Source of the DNA: a virus
IMG/VR virus record: IMGVR_UViG_3300043788_000144
Coordinates: 1 to 20,265 of that record
Strand: one strand, 5' to 3'
DNA length: 20,265 nt
The position numbers were made by a program, and so were the translations under genes. The notes under the pieces were generated by a model, which saw only the letters and a program-made list of their open reading frames with translations, ran no database searches and was not told the DNA's origin. Shown here piece by piece: positions 539 to 15,108 of this stretch. Every line of letters begins with the position of its first letter. Within the stretch, counting starts at the first letter, position 1.

Positions 539-716
539 GGTCTACCTAGACCTGGAACTAGCGGAAGAGGACCCAGAAGGCGAACAGGCGGCTAACGTAC
601 TGAGGGAAGCTAATAATAAGTCCGACCTCACCAATATCGTCTTGTTCGCAGACGAATACGAATTCGCCGTCTCAGACCTGCTCGTCCACGGCTTGGTCGA
701 CGAAGCTCGGCCGTAG
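522..716 (+). CDS. hypothetical acidic protein, 64 aa
   Basis: I do not recognise this small acidic protein. The ATG lies 17 bases inside the end of the previous gene and is preceded by a purine-rich AGGCGGAGGAGCG stretch that fits a strong ribosome binding site. The sequence reads as one compact alpha/beta unit: a strand (RLRVYLDLEL), an acidic helix (about 15-32) and a hydrophobic end (IVLFADEYEFAVSDLLVHGLV). It is the last gene of the queE-led unit; a large three-way-junction hairpin follows directly after its TAG. Confidence 0.6.
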   Translation: MPKRLRVYLDLELAEEDPEGEQAANVLREANNKSDLTNIVLFADEYEFAVSDLLVHGLVDEARP

Positions 717-717
717 A

Positions 718-803
718 GCGTCTGGCTCGGGGATCTCGTACACCCCCCCTACCGAGAGAATCCGCTCAACCGTCCCCCCAACTGAGCGGGCTCCGAGCCA
801 GGC
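718..803 (+). other. three-way-junction RNA element with two C-rich 14-nt loops, probable terminator or ncRNA
   Basis: A 9-bp perfect outer stem (722-730 with 793-801, CTGGCTCGG/CCGAGCCAG) can extend to 12 bp with wobble pairs. It encloses two hairpins: TCTCG/CGAGA (734-738 with 753-757) and CCGCTCA/TGAGCGG (762-768 with 783-789). Each of these has a 14-nt loop carrying a run of seven or six C. A third hairpin follows outside (CCGATG 813-818 with CATCGG 831-836). No T-run follows. It fills the gap between the queE-led unit and the secreted-protein gene at 863, so a Rho-type or actinobacterial T-less terminator, a leader, or a small RNA are all possible. Confidence 0.6.
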
Positions 804-862
804 TCCCTGCTACCGATGCAGGCGTCGGAACATCGGCGGACAACAGGAGAGAAAGGGACAAC

Positions 863-1825
863 ATGTCTCGAACGAAGATGCTGCTGGCAACAGCAGGTAT
901 CGTCGGACTTACGTTTGCGGGGCTGGCAACAGCCAGCGCCGCGAGCGCGTCAACCGTACACGGTGTGAAGCATGGCGTATCGACGTTCGTGCACTATACC
1001 ACCTCCGGTCCGAACGCGACCGCCGGATACTTCACCAGCCCCCTGCAGAGCGGAGACGTGTTCACACACATCGAAGGCTTCATGGGCTCGGGCGGCACCT
1101 CCTCGCTGGAGAACCTGGGAACCGGACCGCTCAACGCCGCAGGCATCGGTCTATGCAACCAGGGTAACGGCGATGCCGTCCGCATGGGAACCGGTTTCGT
1201 CAATGCCTCAGCAGGCACCAAGGAAGTCATCGCTGCCTGGGGCAACCTCGGAACCGCACTGGCGTTCGGCGATCCGTGTGCCAACGGGGCACCTGCCCCG
1301 TCCGGAAGCCTGACGGTAACTGGCCTGCCGGCTAGCATTCCGGCGACATCCACCGAGGGAGCCCTGAATGCGATCGCCGCGATTCCTGATTCGACGGTCG
1401 CAGTCGGTGACACTATCGACGGGCAGATTCTCGCCCATGCAGGATTCGGTGCCTCTGGATGCGGGCCTAACCAGACCGCTTTCGAGTGGCAGGACCTGAC
1501 TACCAATCCGGGCGTATTCCACACCTACTGTGCGACTACCGGATTCACGCCGCTCTACAACGAAGGAGACATCGGCGTTATCGGTGACACCCAGGGCATG
1601 GCGCCGCCGGCCGTCAATCGCCTGGCCGACTATGCGCACGTCGGTCTGACAGAACTGATCGGCCTACATCACGGCGTTCACGGCTCGTTCCAGAACAACG
1701 CGAACTGGACCGCCTTCCCGGTCTTCGCCAGCACGAACGGCGCCTCCAGTGGCTCGATTTTGCTGCAGGTGAACGGATTCAAGAACGACGGTACGGGCGT
1801 TACCTCCGGGACGCCAGTCAGCTGA
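863..1825 (+). CDS. secreted protein, beta-rich; remote resemblance to G1 (eqolisin) peptidase fold without clear catalytic residues
   Basis: The 320-residue product has a classical signal peptide: basic MSRTK, a hydrophobic core to about residue 25, and a likely cleavage after ASA near 30. The mature part is rich in G, S, T, A and N, with few charges and six cysteines, as expected for an extracellular beta-sandwich protein. By eye, segments GYFTS...FTHIEGF, then GDTIDGQILA, then RLADYAHVGLTEL line up loosely with the order of strands in G1 glutamic peptidases. The usual Gln and Glu do not seem present, so this is only a fold-level guess; a structural or host-binding exoprotein is equally possible. 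The start is supported by AGGAGAGAAAGGG about eight bases before ATG. Codons are more G/C-ending than in neighbouring genes. Confidence 0.7.
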   Translation: MSRTKMLLATAGIVGLTFAGLATASAASASTVHGVKHGVSTFVHYTTSGPNATAGYFTSPLQSGDVFTHIEGFMGSGGTSSLENLGTGPLNAAGIGLCNQGNGDAVRMGTGFVNASAGTKEVIAAWGNLGTALAFGDPCANGAPAPSGSLTVTGLPASIPATSTEGALNAIAAIPDSTVAVGDTIDGQILAHAGFGASGCGPNQTAFEWQDLTTNPGVFHTYCATTGFTPLYNEGDIGVIGDTQGMAPPAVNRLADYAHVGLTELIGLHHGVHGSFQNNANWTAFPVFASTNGASSGSILLQVNGFKNDGTGVTSGTPVS

Positions 1826-1911: not shown

Positions 1912-1973
1912 GCAAGCACCGGTCGGTACCGTTCGACTAAATAGCGGGTAGATCGATAACGTACGACCGTTGC

Positions 1974-2040
1974 GGGCGAGGGCCTGGTCTTAGGGAGGCT
2001 GAGCTACCGGGCCCTCGCTCGGAGCGGGCAGTCCGTTCCG
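1974..2040 (+). terminator. tandem GC-rich hairpins ahead of the GH12-like gene
   Basis: Hairpin one pairs GCGAGGGCCTGGT (1976-1988) with ACCGGGCCCTCGC (2006-2018), 13 pairs with one T-G wobble, and can extend two pairs further out to 1974 and 2020. Hairpin two pairs CGGAGCGG (2020-2027) with CCGTTCCG (2033-2040), one G-T wobble, with a 5-nt loop. No T-run follows, so it is either a T-less terminator or a structured 5' leader of the next gene, whose ribosome binding site begins eight bases later. A weak promoter-like pair (TCGACT at 1933, GATAAC at 1955, 16-bp spacer) just upstream would put these hairpins in the leader. Confidence 0.6.
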
Positions 2041-2061: not shown

Positions 2062-2916
2062 TTGATAACGGCTATCAAGAGGCGTAAGAGGCTCATCGCA
2101 TTACTAGCGGTCCTGACGCTCGTAGGATTTACGGTGTCCTTCTGCAAGGGCGAAGGATCTGGGTCTCATCCCTTCACGGGCGTGAACCTAGCCGCGCATG
2201 TCCAGGGCGATCCTACGCCGAGACCCGCGACGGCCCAGACGTGTATCTCTACAGGAGATCTGGCTGTCACTGGGGGCGGTGTCGGTAACTACAAGCTCAA
2301 TCCCGACAACTTCTCCAGTGGGGACGGTAATGCCGTCGTATGCAACTCCGACGGCCTGACCGACTACTCGATCCAATCGCAAACAGGTTCGGGTACCAGT
2401 CCTGTAGCATACCCGAACATCGACGCAGGCTGTAACAGCACTGCCGGCGGTAACTGCTCCACCGGATGGACCGAGCAGGAGTACTCAGCCATCGGCGACC
2501 CTGTCGTTTATGCTGCCGGAGGCGGTAGTACCGGAGGAACTGACGAATGGGACTCCCTGTTCGACGAGTGGTTCGCACCCGCCACGACAGGCTGTCCTAC
2601 CGTTGAGATCGGGATGATGTTCAACGGTGCGAACCTGGCCGCCGCCAGCGGCACGCTGGTTACTATCAGCGGAAAGAACTACTACTACAAGACCGAAGCA
2701 CGAACCGGAAGTGGCTGCTCCTGGACGTACTACCTGTTCCGCAGGCAGACGTTCACATCCAGCATCACCAACTTCGACATGAAGGTGTTGTTCACGTACG
2801 TCCACGATAACGGATCACTGCCGGCTACCGACCTATGGCGTTACGAAGGCGTCGGTAACGAGCTGTGGTCCGGTGGGGCTGGCCTGACGATGTCCGGCGT
2901 AAGCTTCGCACAGTAG
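2062..2916 (+). CDS. secreted or membrane-anchored glycoside hydrolase family 12 homologue (endo-beta-glucanase fold)
   Basis: GH12 enzymes cut beta-1,4-glucans or xyloglucan by a retaining mechanism with two glutamates on a concanavalin-like beta-jelly roll. The 284-residue product starts with a basic stretch and hydrophobic segment (IKRRKRLIALLAVLTLVGFTV), a signal peptide or uncleaved anchor. The mature part follows GH12 order: QTC near the start, a YPN...GC...GNCS loop, FDEWF, the nucleophile segment VEIGMMFN with Glu182, ITNFDMKVLF, and the closing GNELWSGGAGL with acid/base Glu267. Length after the signal (about 255) suits the family. The TTG start is preceded by GGAAGGGAG. A GH12 gene is unexpected in a phage; the target could be host or environmental glucan. 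Both catalytic glutamates appear intact, so activity is plausible but inferred. Confidence 0.75.
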   Translation: MITAIKRRKRLIALLAVLTLVGFTVSFCKGEGSGSHPFTGVNLAAHVQGDPTPRPATAQTCISTGDLAVTGGGVGNYKLNPDNFSSGDGNAVVCNSDGLTDYSIQSQTGSGTSPVAYPNIDAGCNSTAGGNCSTGWTEQEYSAIGDPVVYAAGGGSTGGTDEWDSLFDEWFAPATTGCPTVEIGMMFNGANLAAASGTLVTISGKNYYYKTEARTGSGCSWTYYLFRRQTFTSSITNFDMKVLFTYVHDNGSLPATDLWRYEGVGNELWSGGAGLTMSGVSFAQ

Positions 2917-7307: not shown

Positions 7308-7520
7308 GTGTGGCGTAAGTCGTCGTTTTCTAACATGAACGGAAACTGCGTAGAAGTACGCCTAGGACTAGACGGCTCTGCAGACATGCGAGACTCTAAG
7401 GACAATCGTCAGGGCCCCGTCTTAAGGTTCACTCCAGAAGAGTGGCACGCCTTCCTGGACGGCGTCAAGAAGGGCGAATTCGACGATCTCGGAGGGAGTA
7501 AGGTTGTTTCGGATAAGTAA
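7308..7520 (+). CDS. DUF397 domain protein
   Basis: DUF397 proteins are small actinomycete proteins usually encoded next to an XRE-type regulator, with which they are thought to form regulatory or toxin-antitoxin-like pairs. Here the whole 70-residue product is the domain: WRKSSFSNMNGNCVEV, then MRDSKDNRQGPVLRFTPEEW and AFLDGVKKGEF, all hallmark segments. GTG 7308 is preceded by GGAGGTGAT, an excellent ribosome binding site; an earlier in-frame GTG at 7299 lies inside that site. No XRE partner is present in the window. It overlaps queD by 17 bases, so it is the first gene of the deazaguanine operon. A role against a host DUF397/XRE system is possible. Confidence 0.9.
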   Translation: MWRKSSFSNMNGNCVEVRLGLDGSADMRDSKDNRQGPVLRFTPEEWHAFLDGVKKGEFDDLGGSKVVSDK

Positions 7521-7917
7521 GGACTTTGAGTTCAGCGCCGCGCATCACCTGGAGGGACTGCCTCCCGAGCATCAGTGTGCCAGAGTTCACGGACATAACT
7601 ATACCGTCAGACTCATCCTCGAAGCGGATAACCTAAACGGGGTCGGCTTCGTGAGGGACTACGGTGAGCTCGACCAGTTCAGGGACTGGCTGAAGAACGC
7701 GTTTGACCATCGGGACATCAACGATGCAGAGTTCGTAGGCAATCCAACAGCCGAGAACATGGCCCGAGCGATATACGAGGTCACTGCCACGCTGTTCCCC
7801 GAACTCGCAGGCGTCGGAGTATCCGAAACGCACAAGACCTGGGCGTACTTCTATCCAGGCGTAGTATCTATGACCGAGCCTCCCGACGAGGGCCTGGAAC
7901 TGGAAGGACGTAAGTGA
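7504..7917 (+). CDS. queD: QueD, 6-carboxy-5,6,7,8-tetrahydropterin synthase
   Basis: QueD converts dihydroneopterin triphosphate, the FolE product, to 6-carboxy-tetrahydropterin, the QueE substrate. The 137-residue product has the zinc ligands of the PTPS fold: AAHH at 12-15 and HGH at 29-31, with the catalytic cysteine Cys25 four residues before the HGH (CARVHGH). FDHRDIND and SETHKTWAYF match the later conserved Asp/His and Glu positions. The TTG start follows GGAGGGAGTAAGG, and the gene overlaps folE by GTGA. Length is in the usual range. PTPS itself is less likely given the QueE and DpdA homologues. Confidence 0.9.
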   Translation: MFRISKDFEFSAAHHLEGLPPEHQCARVHGHNYTVRLILEADNLNGVGFVRDYGELDQFRDWLKNAFDHRDINDAEFVGNPTAENMARAIYEVTATLFPELAGVGVSETHKTWAYFYPGVVSMTEPPDEGLELEGRK

Positions 7918-8492
7918 GCGTAATAGGTCCGCAGTATCTGGCCAACGCCTCGCCAGAAGATCTCGTCGACGCTCTGCTCCGAAAGACCTGTCCGGATGTC
8001 TACGACCCCGAAGCAGAACACTTCGCCCAGACGCCTAGACGGTTCGTCAAGATGCTCAGGGAGCTTACCGATGGGACCGAGGACTTTGTCTTCACGACCT
8101 TCGCGGCCAATGGCCATGAGATGGTCGTAATCAAAGACATCCGCTTCGTCAGCCTGTGTGCACACCATATCGCCCCGTTCACCGGCGTATGTCATATCGG
8201 TTACATACCGGAGAAGCTCGTGGCCGGTATCTCGAAGTTCGCTCGTCACGTCCGAGCGATGGCGCACACCCTCACCGTCCAGGAAGACTTGACTACCAAC
8301 ATCGCAGACTCCCTCGACGACATTCTAGACCCAAAAGGAGTTGCGGTCGTCATGAGCGCTACGCACTCGTGCATGTCTGTACGGGGAGCGCTAGCTCACG
8401 GCACAACCACGATCACTTCGGCGATGCGTGGCGTCTTCTCGGAGCATGACCGAACCGCAAAGATAGAATTTATGGAACATATCCGTGGTTAG
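7914..8492 (+). CDS. folE: GTP cyclohydrolase I (FolE)
   Basis: FolE opens the guanine ring of GTP to make dihydroneopterin triphosphate, the first step to folate and, here, to 7-deazaguanine. In the 192-residue product the zinc set is intact: Cys82 and His85 in SLCAHHIAPF and Cys153 in THSCMSVRG. GISKFARHVRAMAHTLTVQEDLT is the typical central motif, and LDPKGVAVVMSATH precedes the last cysteine. The length is near the short bacterial forms. It is translationally coupled to queD (GTGA). A phage copy raises precursor supply for DNA modification. Confidence 0.95.
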   Translation: MSVIGPQYLANASPEDLVDALLRKTCPDVYDPEAEHFAQTPRRFVKMLRELTDGTEDFVFTTFAANGHEMVVIKDIRFVSLCAHHIAPFTGVCHIGYIPEKLVAGISKFARHVRAMAHTLTVQEDLTTNIADSLDDILDPKGVAVVMSATHSCMSVRGALAHGTTTITSAMRGVFSEHDRTAKIEFMEHIRG

Positions 8493-8778
8493 AGAAGTTA
8501 TACCAGAATACGACGAGCCTGATGATATACCAGACATCAAAGTCAAGATGGTCGGAGAGCCTCCAGATACGGTTAATCATCCGCCGCACTATAATCAGCA
8601 CCCGAGCGGTATCGAGTGTATCCAGGTCGTCGAATGGTTCAATTTCAATCTCGGTAATGCCATCAAGTACATATGGCGAGCCGGCGATAAAGGTGGACTA
8701 GAAGATCTGAAGAAGGCTCGCTGGTATATCAACCGGGAGATAGCCCGTCTAGAGGCGGAGTCAGAAAGAGGTCAGTAG
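8485..8778 (+). CDS. DUF3310 protein (phage nucleotide-kinase-like family)
   Basis: The core VNHPPHYNQHPSGIECIQVV with NAIKYIWRAGDKGGLEDLKKARWYI is the DUF3310 signature, a small helical phage family sometimes annotated as nucleotide kinase without proof. The 97-residue product has about 25 extra acidic residues at the N-terminus. The start at GTG 8485 overlaps folE by eight bases but its ribosome binding site is weak; an internal ATG near 8548 is possible. Its place between folE and the DpdA-like gene suggests a nucleotide-pool role, which is inference. Confidence 0.85.
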   Translation: MVREVIPEYDEPDDIPDIKVKMVGEPPDTVNHPPHYNQHPSGIECIQVVEWFNFNLGNAIKYIWRAGDKGGLEDLKKARWYINREIARLEAESERGQ

Positions 8779-9539
8779 TGGAAGTAGCCCTTATCGCCCC
8801 GGTCCCGCTCCTGGATACCACGGAGTACCAGAAGTTCCACATGGTGCTCCCAGCTGTAGTAGGCAACTGGGAGTACGCCGAGTTCTACAAGAGGCTCGGC
8901 CTTAAAGAGGGTTACTACGTCATACTAGACAATGGCGCTTGGGAGGGCGCGTCTCTTTCGTCCACGGAGCTCATGAATATGGCCTACAGGTTCCACGTTC
9001 AGGAAGTCGTAGTGCCTGACATCATCAATGGCCAGCCCGAAGACACCCTGACCATGATGCGCGCCTTCTTCAACTCGGCCGCAGTATCAGGGACCTACTA
9101 CGGAGGATGGCATAGGCCTGCATACGCTGCCGTAGTACACGGCTCTTCGATTACTGAAGCTATAGACTTCGTCGATATAGTCGCCAGTGAGTTTCCTCAG
9201 ATAACTGTATTCTCCCTGGCCAAGAAGTTGCCACGCTTCTGCAAAGACTGGAACGCTAGGGGCAAGATAGCGGAGCACATTCGTCATACATACGGAGACA
9301 GATTTCAGATCCATCTCCTAGGGTTCAACGAGCACATACCAAGCGAGCTGGACATACTGGCTCGTAGCATAGACATGACTACGCCCTACACCTGTTCCTT
9401 CAAGGATAAGGAACTGGGTGTACTAGATGAAATACACGTACCGAGACCCGCTAACTATTTTAGCCTCGGACGAGATGCATTCAACATGAAAAAACTGATG
9501 TACAACATCGAACTAGTAGTAGGAAAGGCAGACCGATGA
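8778..9539 (+). CDS. dpdA: DpdA-like 7-deazaguanine DNA transglycosylase (TGT fold)
   Basis: DpdA proteins are distant relatives of tRNA-guanine transglycosylase that exchange guanine in DNA for preQ0 or related bases. The 253-residue product reads as a TIM barrel with ILDNGAWEG (Asp51 in the position of the TGT D-S-G-G motif), VVVPDIINGQ (Pro80-Asp81), AAVVHGSS, then HLLGF followed by ILARSIDMTTPY, the order expected for phage DpdA. The zinc-binding cysteines of bacterial TGT are absent, as in phage members. GTG shares a base with the upstream stop. FolE and QueD upstream and QueE at the window start strongly support DNA rather than tRNA modification. The exact base installed cannot be told from this. 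Confidence 0.8.
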   Translation: MEVALIAPVPLLDTTEYQKFHMVLPAVVGNWEYAEFYKRLGLKEGYYVILDNGAWEGASLSSTELMNMAYRFHVQEVVVPDIINGQPEDTLTMMRAFFNSAAVSGTYYGGWHRPAYAAVVHGSSITEAIDFVDIVASEFPQITVFSLAKKLPRFCKDWNARGKIAEHIRHTYGDRFQIHLLGFNEHIPSELDILARSIDMTTPYTCSFKDKELGVLDEIHVPRPANYFSLGRDAFNMKKLMYNIELVVGKADR

Positions 9540-10844: not shown

Positions 10845-10983
10845 CGTACCTCAAGAGCTGAAGGATATACTGGACAGCCGTGCGGGCAAGGTCCACTCGG
10901 CCGAAGGTCGGGTAATGCAGACTCTCGCCGAAATACTAACCCGCTTCGAGGAAATGATACGGAGTGGAACCAAGACACCCTAA
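10831..10983 (+). CDS. hypothetical helical protein, 50 aa
   Basis: This frame is open from ATG 10831 to TAA 10981-10983 and overlaps both neighbours (14 bases before, 20 bases after). GGAAGAGG lies about a dozen bases upstream. The product starts LSVDVPQELKDILDSRAGKV and continues with an amphipathic helix (QTLAEILTRFEEMIRSG), a shape seen in small ribbon/helix or dimerising proteins. It fills an otherwise 119-base gap between tightly packed genes, which is the main reason to accept it. Confidence 0.55.
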   Translation: MLSVDVPQELKDILDSRAGKVHSAEGRVMQTLAEILTRFEEMIRSGTKTP

Positions 10984-13651
10984 GGCGAACTGCGAAGCCT
11001 GTCCACTCTTCGACAGAGACTACGCTTACGTCCCTAGCACGGGCCCGAGCCGCTGCAAGATCGCTCTGGTCGGACAGAATCCTGGATCGCAGGAGATCAG
11101 GATAGGCAAGCCGTTCACTGGCCCCAGCGGCAGGCTCCTAGATCAGGTCTTGAAGCATTACAAGCTAGACCGATCTGAGATGCTAGTAACGAATGCTGTC
11201 TCTTGCACGCATCGCCAGGACTCCACGATGAAGCCTCCGGCAGCTGCAGTGGCAGCCTGTCGTCCGAGACTCATGGAAGAACTACACCAGCGTGGAGCCG
11301 AGAAGATCGTCTCGATGGGTAACGTCCCGTCTCAAGGGTTCCTCGGCGTAAGAGATTCGATCACCCGCCTACGAGTAGGCGCTGCCCGCGACCTAGAGAT
11401 AACCGCAGGGCACTTCGCCAAGCTGTACTGTACGTATCACCCAGCTGCATGTCTCCGGGGAGCGCAGTACTTCCCGTCAATGGTCAATGACTTCGGCAAA
11501 CTAGTCAAGCCGCCTCCCCCATGGCAGGAGCCTACGTATGTTGTCTGGGAAGATTCGATCACAGCTATCCGCGGTATCAAGGAAATGCAACGTAGAGGGA
11601 TCAGTCGAATATCTCTCGACATCGAAACATCCGTACCTGCCGATAAAGATACCAGTTTTGACCACCCGTATCGGTACAAGATACTTTGCATTGGCTTGGC
11701 CTATTCACCGACTAAGGCTATTGTCATCGGGAGAGCAGCCTGTCAGGACCCGCTCGTCCTAAAGATGCTGAAACAGTTCCTAGTCGGCAAGACAATCATC
11801 TGCCAAAACGGTAAGTTCGACAAGCAAGGCCAATACGCGCACGGCTGCGACTTCACGTTCACGTCTGACACGATGCTACAGTCGTACGTCATGGATGAGA
11901 GGCCTGGTATTCATGGACTCAAGGTCCAGCTCGAAGAGAAGCTCGGGTATCCGAGATATGCTGACGAGATCACGCAATACGTCGGAAAAGGCAAAGCGAA
12001 GTCGTTCGCGAACATTCCCCTTGATATCCTTTACCGCTACAACGCATACGACACGTGCGGCACTTTCGCTCTGGACGAATACAACATGGAGCTGCTACAC
12101 GGGGATGATTGGGCTGCACCCGTCCGAGATCGGCATGACGGTGAACGTTGGGGACTCGTTCGGCTTCACAGTTTCATGGTCCAAACAGCCAATAACCTCT
12201 CCTACGTGGAGCTCAATGGGTTTCCCGTTGACCTCAAGTACAATGCAGAGCTCACCAGGAAGTACGATGGAGAGCTCTCCCGCCTAGAGCAGGACATGTT
12301 CGACCTGCTGGACGGAGTCAGATTCAATCCCCGGTCCCCGCAACAACTGAAGAAGATCTTCGCCAACATGAACGTCCCGCTTCCTATGGTCCGTAGACCT
12401 AACGGAACGGTATCCGCCTCCACGGCAGCGGACGTATTGAAGGACTTGTACGAGAAGTACAAGTCAATCACTACTAAGGCGATAGGCAGGTCCGATACGC
12501 CTGAAATCGTATACGAGAGTACTGAAGAGGCTTTCCTTCGAGCCCTGCTGGCATATCGTAAGTTCGCCAAGATGAACGGCACATACGTCCGCGGCTTGAA
12601 GAAGCACGTATGGAAGGGCCGAGTCTTCCCGACGATCATGATTCACTCTACCGTATCGGGCAGGACATCACAGAAGAGACCGTCGCTTCAGGTCATTCCT
12701 CACGCCAACGAGATCAAGAGACAGTTCGTTACGTCGGACTACAACAAGTGGCGATACGACTGGGAACCGTACCGCGACTACAGCGTACTGTGTGAATTTG
12801 ACTATAAGCAGATCGAACTACGGGTGCTAACCTGGCTAGCTCAAGAGGAGTACTTCCGTGAGATATTCGCAGACGAGAACCGGGACCTATTCAAAGAACT
12901 TCTTCCAGTTGTCAGACCCGAACGGTCTAAGAAGACTAATCTACACCCCAAGGACAGACGAAATATCGTCAAAGCCTTCGTCTACGGATTGGCTTACGGC
13001 CGAGAGGCAAGCTCCATTGCCGAGGAGTACGGGATACCGGATCAGGATGCTCAGGAAATGTACCGTGACTTTTTCCGGGCTATCCCGAATATTGTCAGGT
13101 TCAGAAATCAGGTCAAGCGAGACGCGGTGTCGCAGAACGACCTCGTCACTCCCTTCGGACGGAGAAGAAGGTTCTGGCTAGTCACTCCAGACAATAAGAA
13201 GGAAGTTGAGAACGAGGCGCTATCATTCTATCCACAGTCCATTGCATCCGATATAGCGATACAGGCATTCAACTGGTTGAGACCGCAACTAAAGGGAATT
13301 GCATACGTACGTAATCTTGTGCACGACGCTATCTTCACGGAGTGCAAGGAAAGTAACCTGGAGAGAGTAGCGGACATAGTCATTTCCACCATGCAGGCGT
13401 CAGCTTACGCCGTCATGGGCGATTACGTCAAGATCGGTGTAGATGCGGAGGTAGGCAGGACATGGGGCGATATGATCAGCCTAGAGAGTTGGCTCGACGG
13501 GAAGAGACCCTACCCGTCGGAAGTGGCCGTGAGACAGACAGCCGTTCTAGTTCCGCACACTACGCCGACGCTCAGTTTGGCAGGCCCGATTGGGTCATGT
13601 GCGGATTTCAATGGGGCCAAGGAGTGCGAGTCCTCGCTAGTAAGATTCTGA
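10964..13651 (+). CDS. family A DNA polymerase with N-terminal family 4 uracil-DNA-glycosylase domain (SPO1-type fusion)
   Basis: The 895-residue replicative polymerase begins with a UDG domain (about 1-180): all four Fe-S cysteines (Cys10, 13, 81, 99), motif GQNPGSQE (37-44) and HPAA at 159. Then comes an intact 3'-5' exonuclease: Exo I Asp219/Glu221 (LDIETS), Exo II Asn282/Asp286, Exo III YNAYD at 359-363. The polymerase domain has motif A with Asp613 (FDYKQIELR), motif B Lys670 to Gly675 (KAFVYG) and motif C VHDA with Asp788; the usual Glu after this Asp is Ala789. About 45 residues after the expected end are unusual. The GTG start overlaps a small gene. The UDG domain may act as a uracil or base sensor, as in SPO1-like phages. 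Confidence 0.92.
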   Translation: MEPRHPKANCEACPLFDRDYAYVPSTGPSRCKIALVGQNPGSQEIRIGKPFTGPSGRLLDQVLKHYKLDRSEMLVTNAVSCTHRQDSTMKPPAAAVAACRPRLMEELHQRGAEKIVSMGNVPSQGFLGVRDSITRLRVGAARDLEITAGHFAKLYCTYHPAACLRGAQYFPSMVNDFGKLVKPPPPWQEPTYVVWEDSITAIRGIKEMQRRGISRISLDIETSVPADKDTSFDHPYRYKILCIGLAYSPTKAIVIGRAACQDPLVLKMLKQFLVGKTIICQNGKFDKQGQYAHGCDFTFTSDTMLQSYVMDERPGIHGLKVQLEEKLGYPRYADEITQYVGKGKAKSFANIPLDILYRYNAYDTCGTFALDEYNMELLHGDDWAAPVRDRHDGERWGLVRLHSFMVQTANNLSYVELNGFPVDLKYNAELTRKYDGELSRLEQDMFDLLDGVRFNPRSPQQLKKIFANMNVPLPMVRRPNGTVSASTAADVLKDLYEKYKSITTKAIGRSDTPEIVYESTEEAFLRALLAYRKFAKMNGTYVRGLKKHVWKGRVFPTIMIHSTVSGRTSQKRPSLQVIPHANEIKRQFVTSDYNKWRYDWEPYRDYSVLCEFDYKQIELRVLTWLAQEEYFREIFADENRDLFKELLPVVRPERSKKTNLHPKDRRNIVKAFVYGLAYGREASSIAEEYGIPDQDAQEMYRDFFRAIPNIVRFRNQVKRDAVSQNDLVTPFGRRRRFWLVTPDNKKEVENEALSFYPQSIASDIAIQAFNWLRPQLKGIAYVRNLVHDAIFTECKESNLERVADIVISTMQASAYAVMGDYVKIGVDAEVGRTWGDMISLESWLDGKRPYPSEVAVRQTAVLVPHTTPTLSLAGPIGSCADFNGAKECESSLVRF

Positions 13652-14823: not shown

Positions 14824-15108
14824 ATGCAGATCGGAATAGCCAATACTAAGGCTAGCGTTAACAACTCGGCTACATACAATTCAGCAATCGCGGGAGCCGC
14901 AGCCGGACTCATATTCGCGGCGCTAAACGTCTACGTATTCAAGGGACACGTACCGTCTGGAATTACTACCGCTATCTACACCCTGATCTGCGCAATCTCA
15001 ACCGCCGTAGCTGGATTCTTGACTCGCCGAGACTTCAAAGACGAGCCAGCTCCCGCTGATGCGCCTGCAGACGTCAAGGCCAGATTCCAGCAGGATTCGA
15101 CGAGCTAA
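14824..15108 (+). CDS. two-span small membrane protein, holin-like, 94 aa
   Basis: AAAGGAG five bases before the ATG gives one of the best ribosome binding sites here. Two membrane helices are evident (about 21-40, AIAGAAAGLIFAALNVYVF, and 45-66, SGITTAIYTLICAISTAVAGF), joined by a short KGHVP turn and followed by a charged tail RRDFKDEP. This is the shape of class II holins and of several actinobacteriophage membrane proteins. It is on the plus strand, away from the hydrolase cassette, so a holin role is not assured; antiholin or membrane superinfection functions are alternatives. Confidence 0.7.
   Translation: MQIGIANTKASVNNSATYNSAIAGAAAGLIFAALNVYVFKGHVPSGITTAIYTLICAISTAVAGFLTRRDFKDEPAPADAPADVKARFQQDSTS

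Follow-up and report, generated by a model that had tools for sequence, protein, structure and literature searches.

Does the open reading frame (ORF) at 2062-2916 of this viral DNA encode an exported GH12 endoglucanase, as the original prediction held? In this work, the window (the whole stretch of 20,265 nucleotides, positions 1 to 20,265 of IMG/VR record IMGVR_UViG_3300043788_000144) was analysed, and the ORF was confirmed as described, with exact ends, a TTG start codon and 284 residues (Table 1). A purine-rich AGGGAG lies a few bases 5' of its start. The protein comprises a hydrophobic N-terminal segment (about residues 10-27), a low-confidence linker up to about residue 58, and a GH12 beta jelly roll at about residues 59-283. 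A second IMG/VR contig of the same phage type (28,286 bases), hereafter the sister contig, is for the most part collinear with the window, and the two are 91-100% identical. The protein that it encodes is identical, and the two genes differ at one of 855 nucleotides, in a third codon position. Apart from this contig, the viral contigs, phages and plasmids searched yielded no closer relative, and the nearest relatives of all were at most about 32% identical in a segment. A tRNA-Ser called by ARAGORN within the same reading frame (2501-2592) had no Rfam match and is probably false.

Table 1. Features of the GH12-like gene and its surroundings, in positions of the window.
Feature	Position	Strand	Basis or remark
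GH12-family protein gene, diverged, 284 aa	2062..2916	+	ORF call, phmmer, hhalign, AlphaFold model, Foldseek
Hydrophobic segment after basic KRRKR	2089..2142	+	putative Sec signal or signal anchor; sequence and hydropathy
WDSLFD motif, W163-D168	2548..2565	+	D168 corresponds to the GH12 aspartate (D99, T. reesei Cel12A), D164 to N95
VEIGMM motif, residues 181-186	2602..2619	+	E182 corresponds to the nucleophile; G184 and M186 in place of invariant Met and Trp (E, M, W each 52/52)
GNELWSGGAGL motif, residues 265-275	2854..2886	+	E267 corresponds to the acid/base; G265, E267, G272 52/52; W269, G274 51/52
Neighbouring exported protein, 320 aa, no known family	863..1825	+	signal peptide, ASA-S cleavage motif; sequence
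Hairpin before the first exported gene	707..816		inverted repeat 75%; fold of 720-850 z -2.2
Strong hairpin between both exported genes	1967..2027		inverted repeat 82%; -51.6 kcal/mol, z -5.0
Strong hairpin just 3' of the GH12 stop codon	2932..2991		inverted repeat 87%; -44.1 kcal/mol, z -8.2

The phage protein belongs firmly to the GH12 fold family. In a phmmer search of the PDB sequences, all matches at E below 0.001 were GH12 proteins, with the GH12 domains of 7mks/7mkr at 9e-7, 2bw8 at 6e-5, 1h0b at 9e-5 and 3wx5 at 5e-4. The best of these is the GH12 domain of Acidothermus GuxA; its entry is labelled 'family 6' after the parent protein, and it was identified as the GH12 domain in a Foldseek search of the predicted structure. 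The comparison by hhalign with 14 bacterial GH12s gave a probability of 99.1% (E 6.8e-19, 222 columns). The AlphaFold model (44 relatives in the alignment) is moderately confident, with a pLDDT of 76.5, and its prediction was guided by the GH12 homologues in that alignment. The GH12 part of the model starts at about residue 59, and its top 50 PDB matches in Foldseek were all GH12 (best E 9.4e-15, TM 0.81 by target). Thus, the predicted GH12 homology is upheld, the jelly-roll fold for which a structure prediction had been proposed as a check is well supported by this homologue-guided model, and a chance resemblance is ruled out by phmmer, hhalign and Foldseek. The profile search that had also been proposed gave a divided answer, positive with hhalign and silent with Pfam GH12. 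No match to PF01670 was obtained at E up to 10 in the whole record, while controls were detected and bacterial relatives scored 46-125 bits. The protein was unmatched in the scans of Pfam, PHROGs and NCBIfam, no carbohydrate-binding module was found in it by Pfam, and the structure search of BFVD returned one weak match (TM 0.21), which was taken as no hit. A scan of genome contigs found 54 loci, mostly from Actinomycetota, among them the 14 used with hhalign. In their best segments, these loci are 24-32% identical to the phage protein; the seven loci that were checked are all above the Pfam GH12 cut-off. A whole-genome search with the single phage protein gave 0 matches even in GH12-bearing genomes, so this search carries no negative value.

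The N-terminus of the protein looks like a Sec signal or a signal anchor. Residues 1-30 hold the basic start and the sole strongly hydrophobic stretch, and the Kyte-Doolittle maximum in 15-residue windows is 2.71 from residue 11, against 1.08 for the next best window beyond residue 40. Neither a good lipobox nor a clear AXA site was seen in this N-terminus, so cleavage and retention as a membrane anchor are equally likely. The original proposal of a signal or anchor and of export is therefore favoured to the extent that sequence alone can favour it, by the basic lead and the hydrophobic core. Furthermore, the six cysteines beyond the signal region fit an extracellular, disulfide-bonded protein. 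C124 and C132 are present in 52 of 52 bacterial relatives. C61 keeps its position; its usual partner column is Ala, and C94 stands three residues on, where another viral GH12 (L061) likewise has Cys. C178 and C219 would form a new pair.

The active site was compared by aligning the protein with 52 relatives from bacteria; 33 columns of this alignment were at least 94% conserved. E182 and E267 align with the nucleophile and the acid/base of GH12, and the third active-site acid is matched by D168. Each of the three is found in all 52 relatives, and the claim that both catalytic glutamates are present is borne out. Of the near-invariant columns the phage protein retains 20, including D168, E182, E267, C61, C124, C132, W170, G265, W269, G272 and G274. 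It loses 13 (W84F, C91A, H125N, P138E, Y167F, M184G, W186M, P195A, V209Y, Y226F, D246Y, R250N and F280V), which is more than any relative. Five residues are reported to be absolutely conserved in GH12, namely W22, M118, W120, E116 and E200 in the numbering of Trichoderma reesei Cel12A (PMC4680936). Only the two glutamates are retained in the phage protein, whereas W22, M118 and W120 correspond to F84, G184 and M186, as mapped via motif spacing (N-x-W, N/D-x3-D, E-x-M-x-W) and not by direct alignment. In T. reesei Cel12A, where D99 has a role in the active site, the mutants M118A, W22A and D99A were shown to have an activity below 1%, and W22F 38.7% (PMC4680936). With G, F and M at the positions of M118, W22 and W120, the phage protein may therefore be inactive. 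Because the residues that define the endoglucanase cleft are replaced, its membership among the endoglucanases is doubtful, and this part of the original prediction is not supported.

Bacterial GH12 endoglucanases of the type of the Acidothermus GuxA GH12 domain, Rhodothermus marinus Cel12A and Streptomyces CelB2 are 20-28% identical to the phage protein over the domain. The predicted jelly roll, the three acids, the C124, C132 pair and the GxExWxGGxGL motif are common to both. The phage protein differs from them in having F, G and M for the -2, -1 and +1 residues W, M and W, and in the replacement of His125, Arg250 and others.

We hypothesize that the product of the gene is a glycanase of the GH12 type, diverged and exported and with its cleft remodelled, which would act on a glucan at the surface of the infected cell (probability about 0.45). 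This reading is favoured by the GH12 homology found by three methods and by the three active-site acids, kept despite the loss of 13 of the 33 near-invariant columns. It is also favoured by the retained C61, C124 and C132, the six cysteines after the signal region, the hydrophobic N-terminus with its basic lead, and the unchanged protein of the sister contig, where the sole nucleotide change is in a third position. The replacements at the M118, W22 and W120 sites, read in the light of the Cel12A mutants, argue against it, as do the distance of the nearest relative and the homologue-guided, moderately confident model. The main rival, which we consider rather unlikely, is a dead GH12 fold exported as a sugar-binding or surface-coating protein, for example one that changes how other phages adsorb to the infected cell. 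The loss of three of the five absolutely conserved residues, including the Met that is essential in Cel12A, would suit such a protein, as would a possible uncleaved membrane anchor and a branch that, at 4 changes per column, is the longest in the tree. However, both catalytic glutamates and the supporting aspartate are still present, which would be superfluous in a lectin, and four retained near-invariant residues (G265, W269, G272 and G274) surround the acid/base.

The gene lies in a phage, as had been claimed. By comparison with Pfam, PHROGs and NCBIfam, the window encodes a fusion of UDG and DNA polymerase A, a Sak4-like protein, an exonuclease, QueD, FolE and the end of QueE. The DNA polymerase A, Sak4-like protein and exonuclease genes are on the same strand as the GH12 gene, and tail-type genes occupy the right end and run on along the minus strand in the sister contig. 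Streptomyces phages provide the closest match to a minor tail protein of the sister contig, and the host is therefore likely to be an actinobacterium. In the DNA polymerase A (10964-13651), the fused N-terminal domain belongs to the uracil-DNA glycosylase superfamily, and both domains are far over the Pfam cut-off. The end of QueE (3-272), QueD (7504-7917) and FolE (7914-8492) belong to the 7-deazaguanine (preQ0) pathway, whose usual role in phages is the modification of DNA. An ORF at 8778-9539 might by its position be the inserting transglycosylase and matched nothing, and a 94-aa membrane protein (14824-15108) is weakly like actinobacterial holin superfamily III.

The protein encoded upstream of the GH12 gene, by a neighbour likewise bracketed by hairpins, contains four cysteines, and its signal peptide is clear. 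No match worth counting was found for it in Pfam, PHROGs, NCBIfam or the PDB, the only relative found is in the sister contig, and its single-sequence structure prediction reached a pLDDT of 32. The window contains five inverted repeats with arms of at least 18, and three of them stand exactly before, between and after the two exported genes. The second and third of these hairpins fold far better than shuffled sequences. T-runs are absent from the flanking hairpins, and the best guess is therefore that they serve as actinobacterial-type terminators or as protectors of mRNA. With hairpins in these places, the two exported genes look like separately transcribed cargo, and the GH12 gene with its neighbour resembles an insertable cassette. 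Such a unit of its own, adjoining another exported protein in a phage context, also agrees with an exported glycanase.

The original prediction further stated that GH12 is not a usual phage cargo. This is true of isolates: 50,697 isolate-phage records were searched with the window protein and with one GH12 each of bacterial and viral origin, and none of these queries gave a match. The same bacterial query matched 21 plasmid records, so that the search of phage records can see the family. The statement is weakened by a pattern scan of IMG/VR, in which seven other contigs with GH12 were found, two of them with the domain in tail proteins. One (L063) encodes a 1210-aa tailspike-like protein (L063:5023-8652) with a pectate-lyase-like N-terminal part and the GH12-like domain mid-protein, which keeps E-x-M-x-W and an AGFEIWQGG motif. 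In the other (L060), the GH12 domain stands behind tail-fibre sequence, with a weak match to CBM5/12. An endolysin gene is nearby in L061 and an integrase gene in L064, and L062, with its cellular-looking genes, may be bacterial DNA. The position of W120 is Met in L064 and Phe in L061, and the Met of M118 is kept in all other viral GH12s, which is a weaker drift at the same place as in the phage protein. A common origin of the viral GH12s was rejected, as the tree needs 5 changes, at least 2 of them forced by starred branches, although the branches are long and the placement is unsure. GH12 in phages is thus rare and not unique, and it probably has more than one origin. Two leads to viral GH12 in the literature proved to be false text matches, to GH120 and GH127.

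These tail proteins raise the possibility of a virion-associated depolymerase, packed in the particle to open a path through host glycan. Like the window protein, the L060 and L063 domains are viral GH12s with catalytic Glu motifs. They are, however, parts of a tail fibre or tailspike and keep E-x-M-x-W, whereas the phage protein is free-standing with a signal-like, hydrophobic N-terminus and is encoded apart from the tail genes, on the opposite strand. No tail domain was found in the ORF by Pfam or PHROGs, and the ORF lies outside the tail region. We regard this reading as very improbable.

Slightly better placed, and still quite improbable, is an auxiliary metabolic gene for an endoglucanase or xyloglucanase of the ordinary type, which would release plant polysaccharide in the soil as food for the infected host. 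The GH12 family itself and the mostly actinomycetotal origin of the nearest bacterial members would favour it. Moreover, soil viruses are known to encode active glycosidases, a GH5 endomannanase (PMC6786970) and the chitosanase V-Csn (PMC9485262). These resemble the present case in that an uncultured virus encodes a polysaccharide hydrolase homologue, and differ from it in belonging to other families and folds and in being proven active. Against a metabolic gene, the glucose-holding residues of subsites -2 to +1 are replaced, the Pfam scan gave no carbohydrate-binding module, and the distance of the gene from its nearest bacterial relatives indicates no recent host copy.

To return to the diverged glycanase, the protein has kept the catalytic acids and lost the sugar-gripping residues next to them, so the polysaccharide that it cuts or binds is probably not ordinary cellulose. 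During infection, the GH12-fold glycosidase of this actinophage would be exported and either released or tethered to the host surface through the hydrophobic stretch at its N-terminus. It would still use the double-displacement machinery of GH12, with E182 as the nucleophile, E267 as the acid/base and D168 in support. The rebuilt -2 to +1 subsites would lead to cleavage of a beta-glucan-like or other polymer, unlike the plain cellulose cut by bacterial GH12s. Its most likely target would be polysaccharide on or around the host cells, and the cleavage would aid the release or spread of virions. It is possible, although still on the unlikely side, that the phage lineage remade the GH12 fold into an exported enzyme of new specificity for a host surface glycan, with three cleft residues replaced and the acids kept. 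Standard annotation based on Pfam misses such phage genes. The GH12 family has been studied in depth, and the residues that are replaced in the phage protein are the ones regarded as indispensable. A natural GH12 with the acids and without those residues would represent either a new specificity or a route from a glycosidase to a binding protein.
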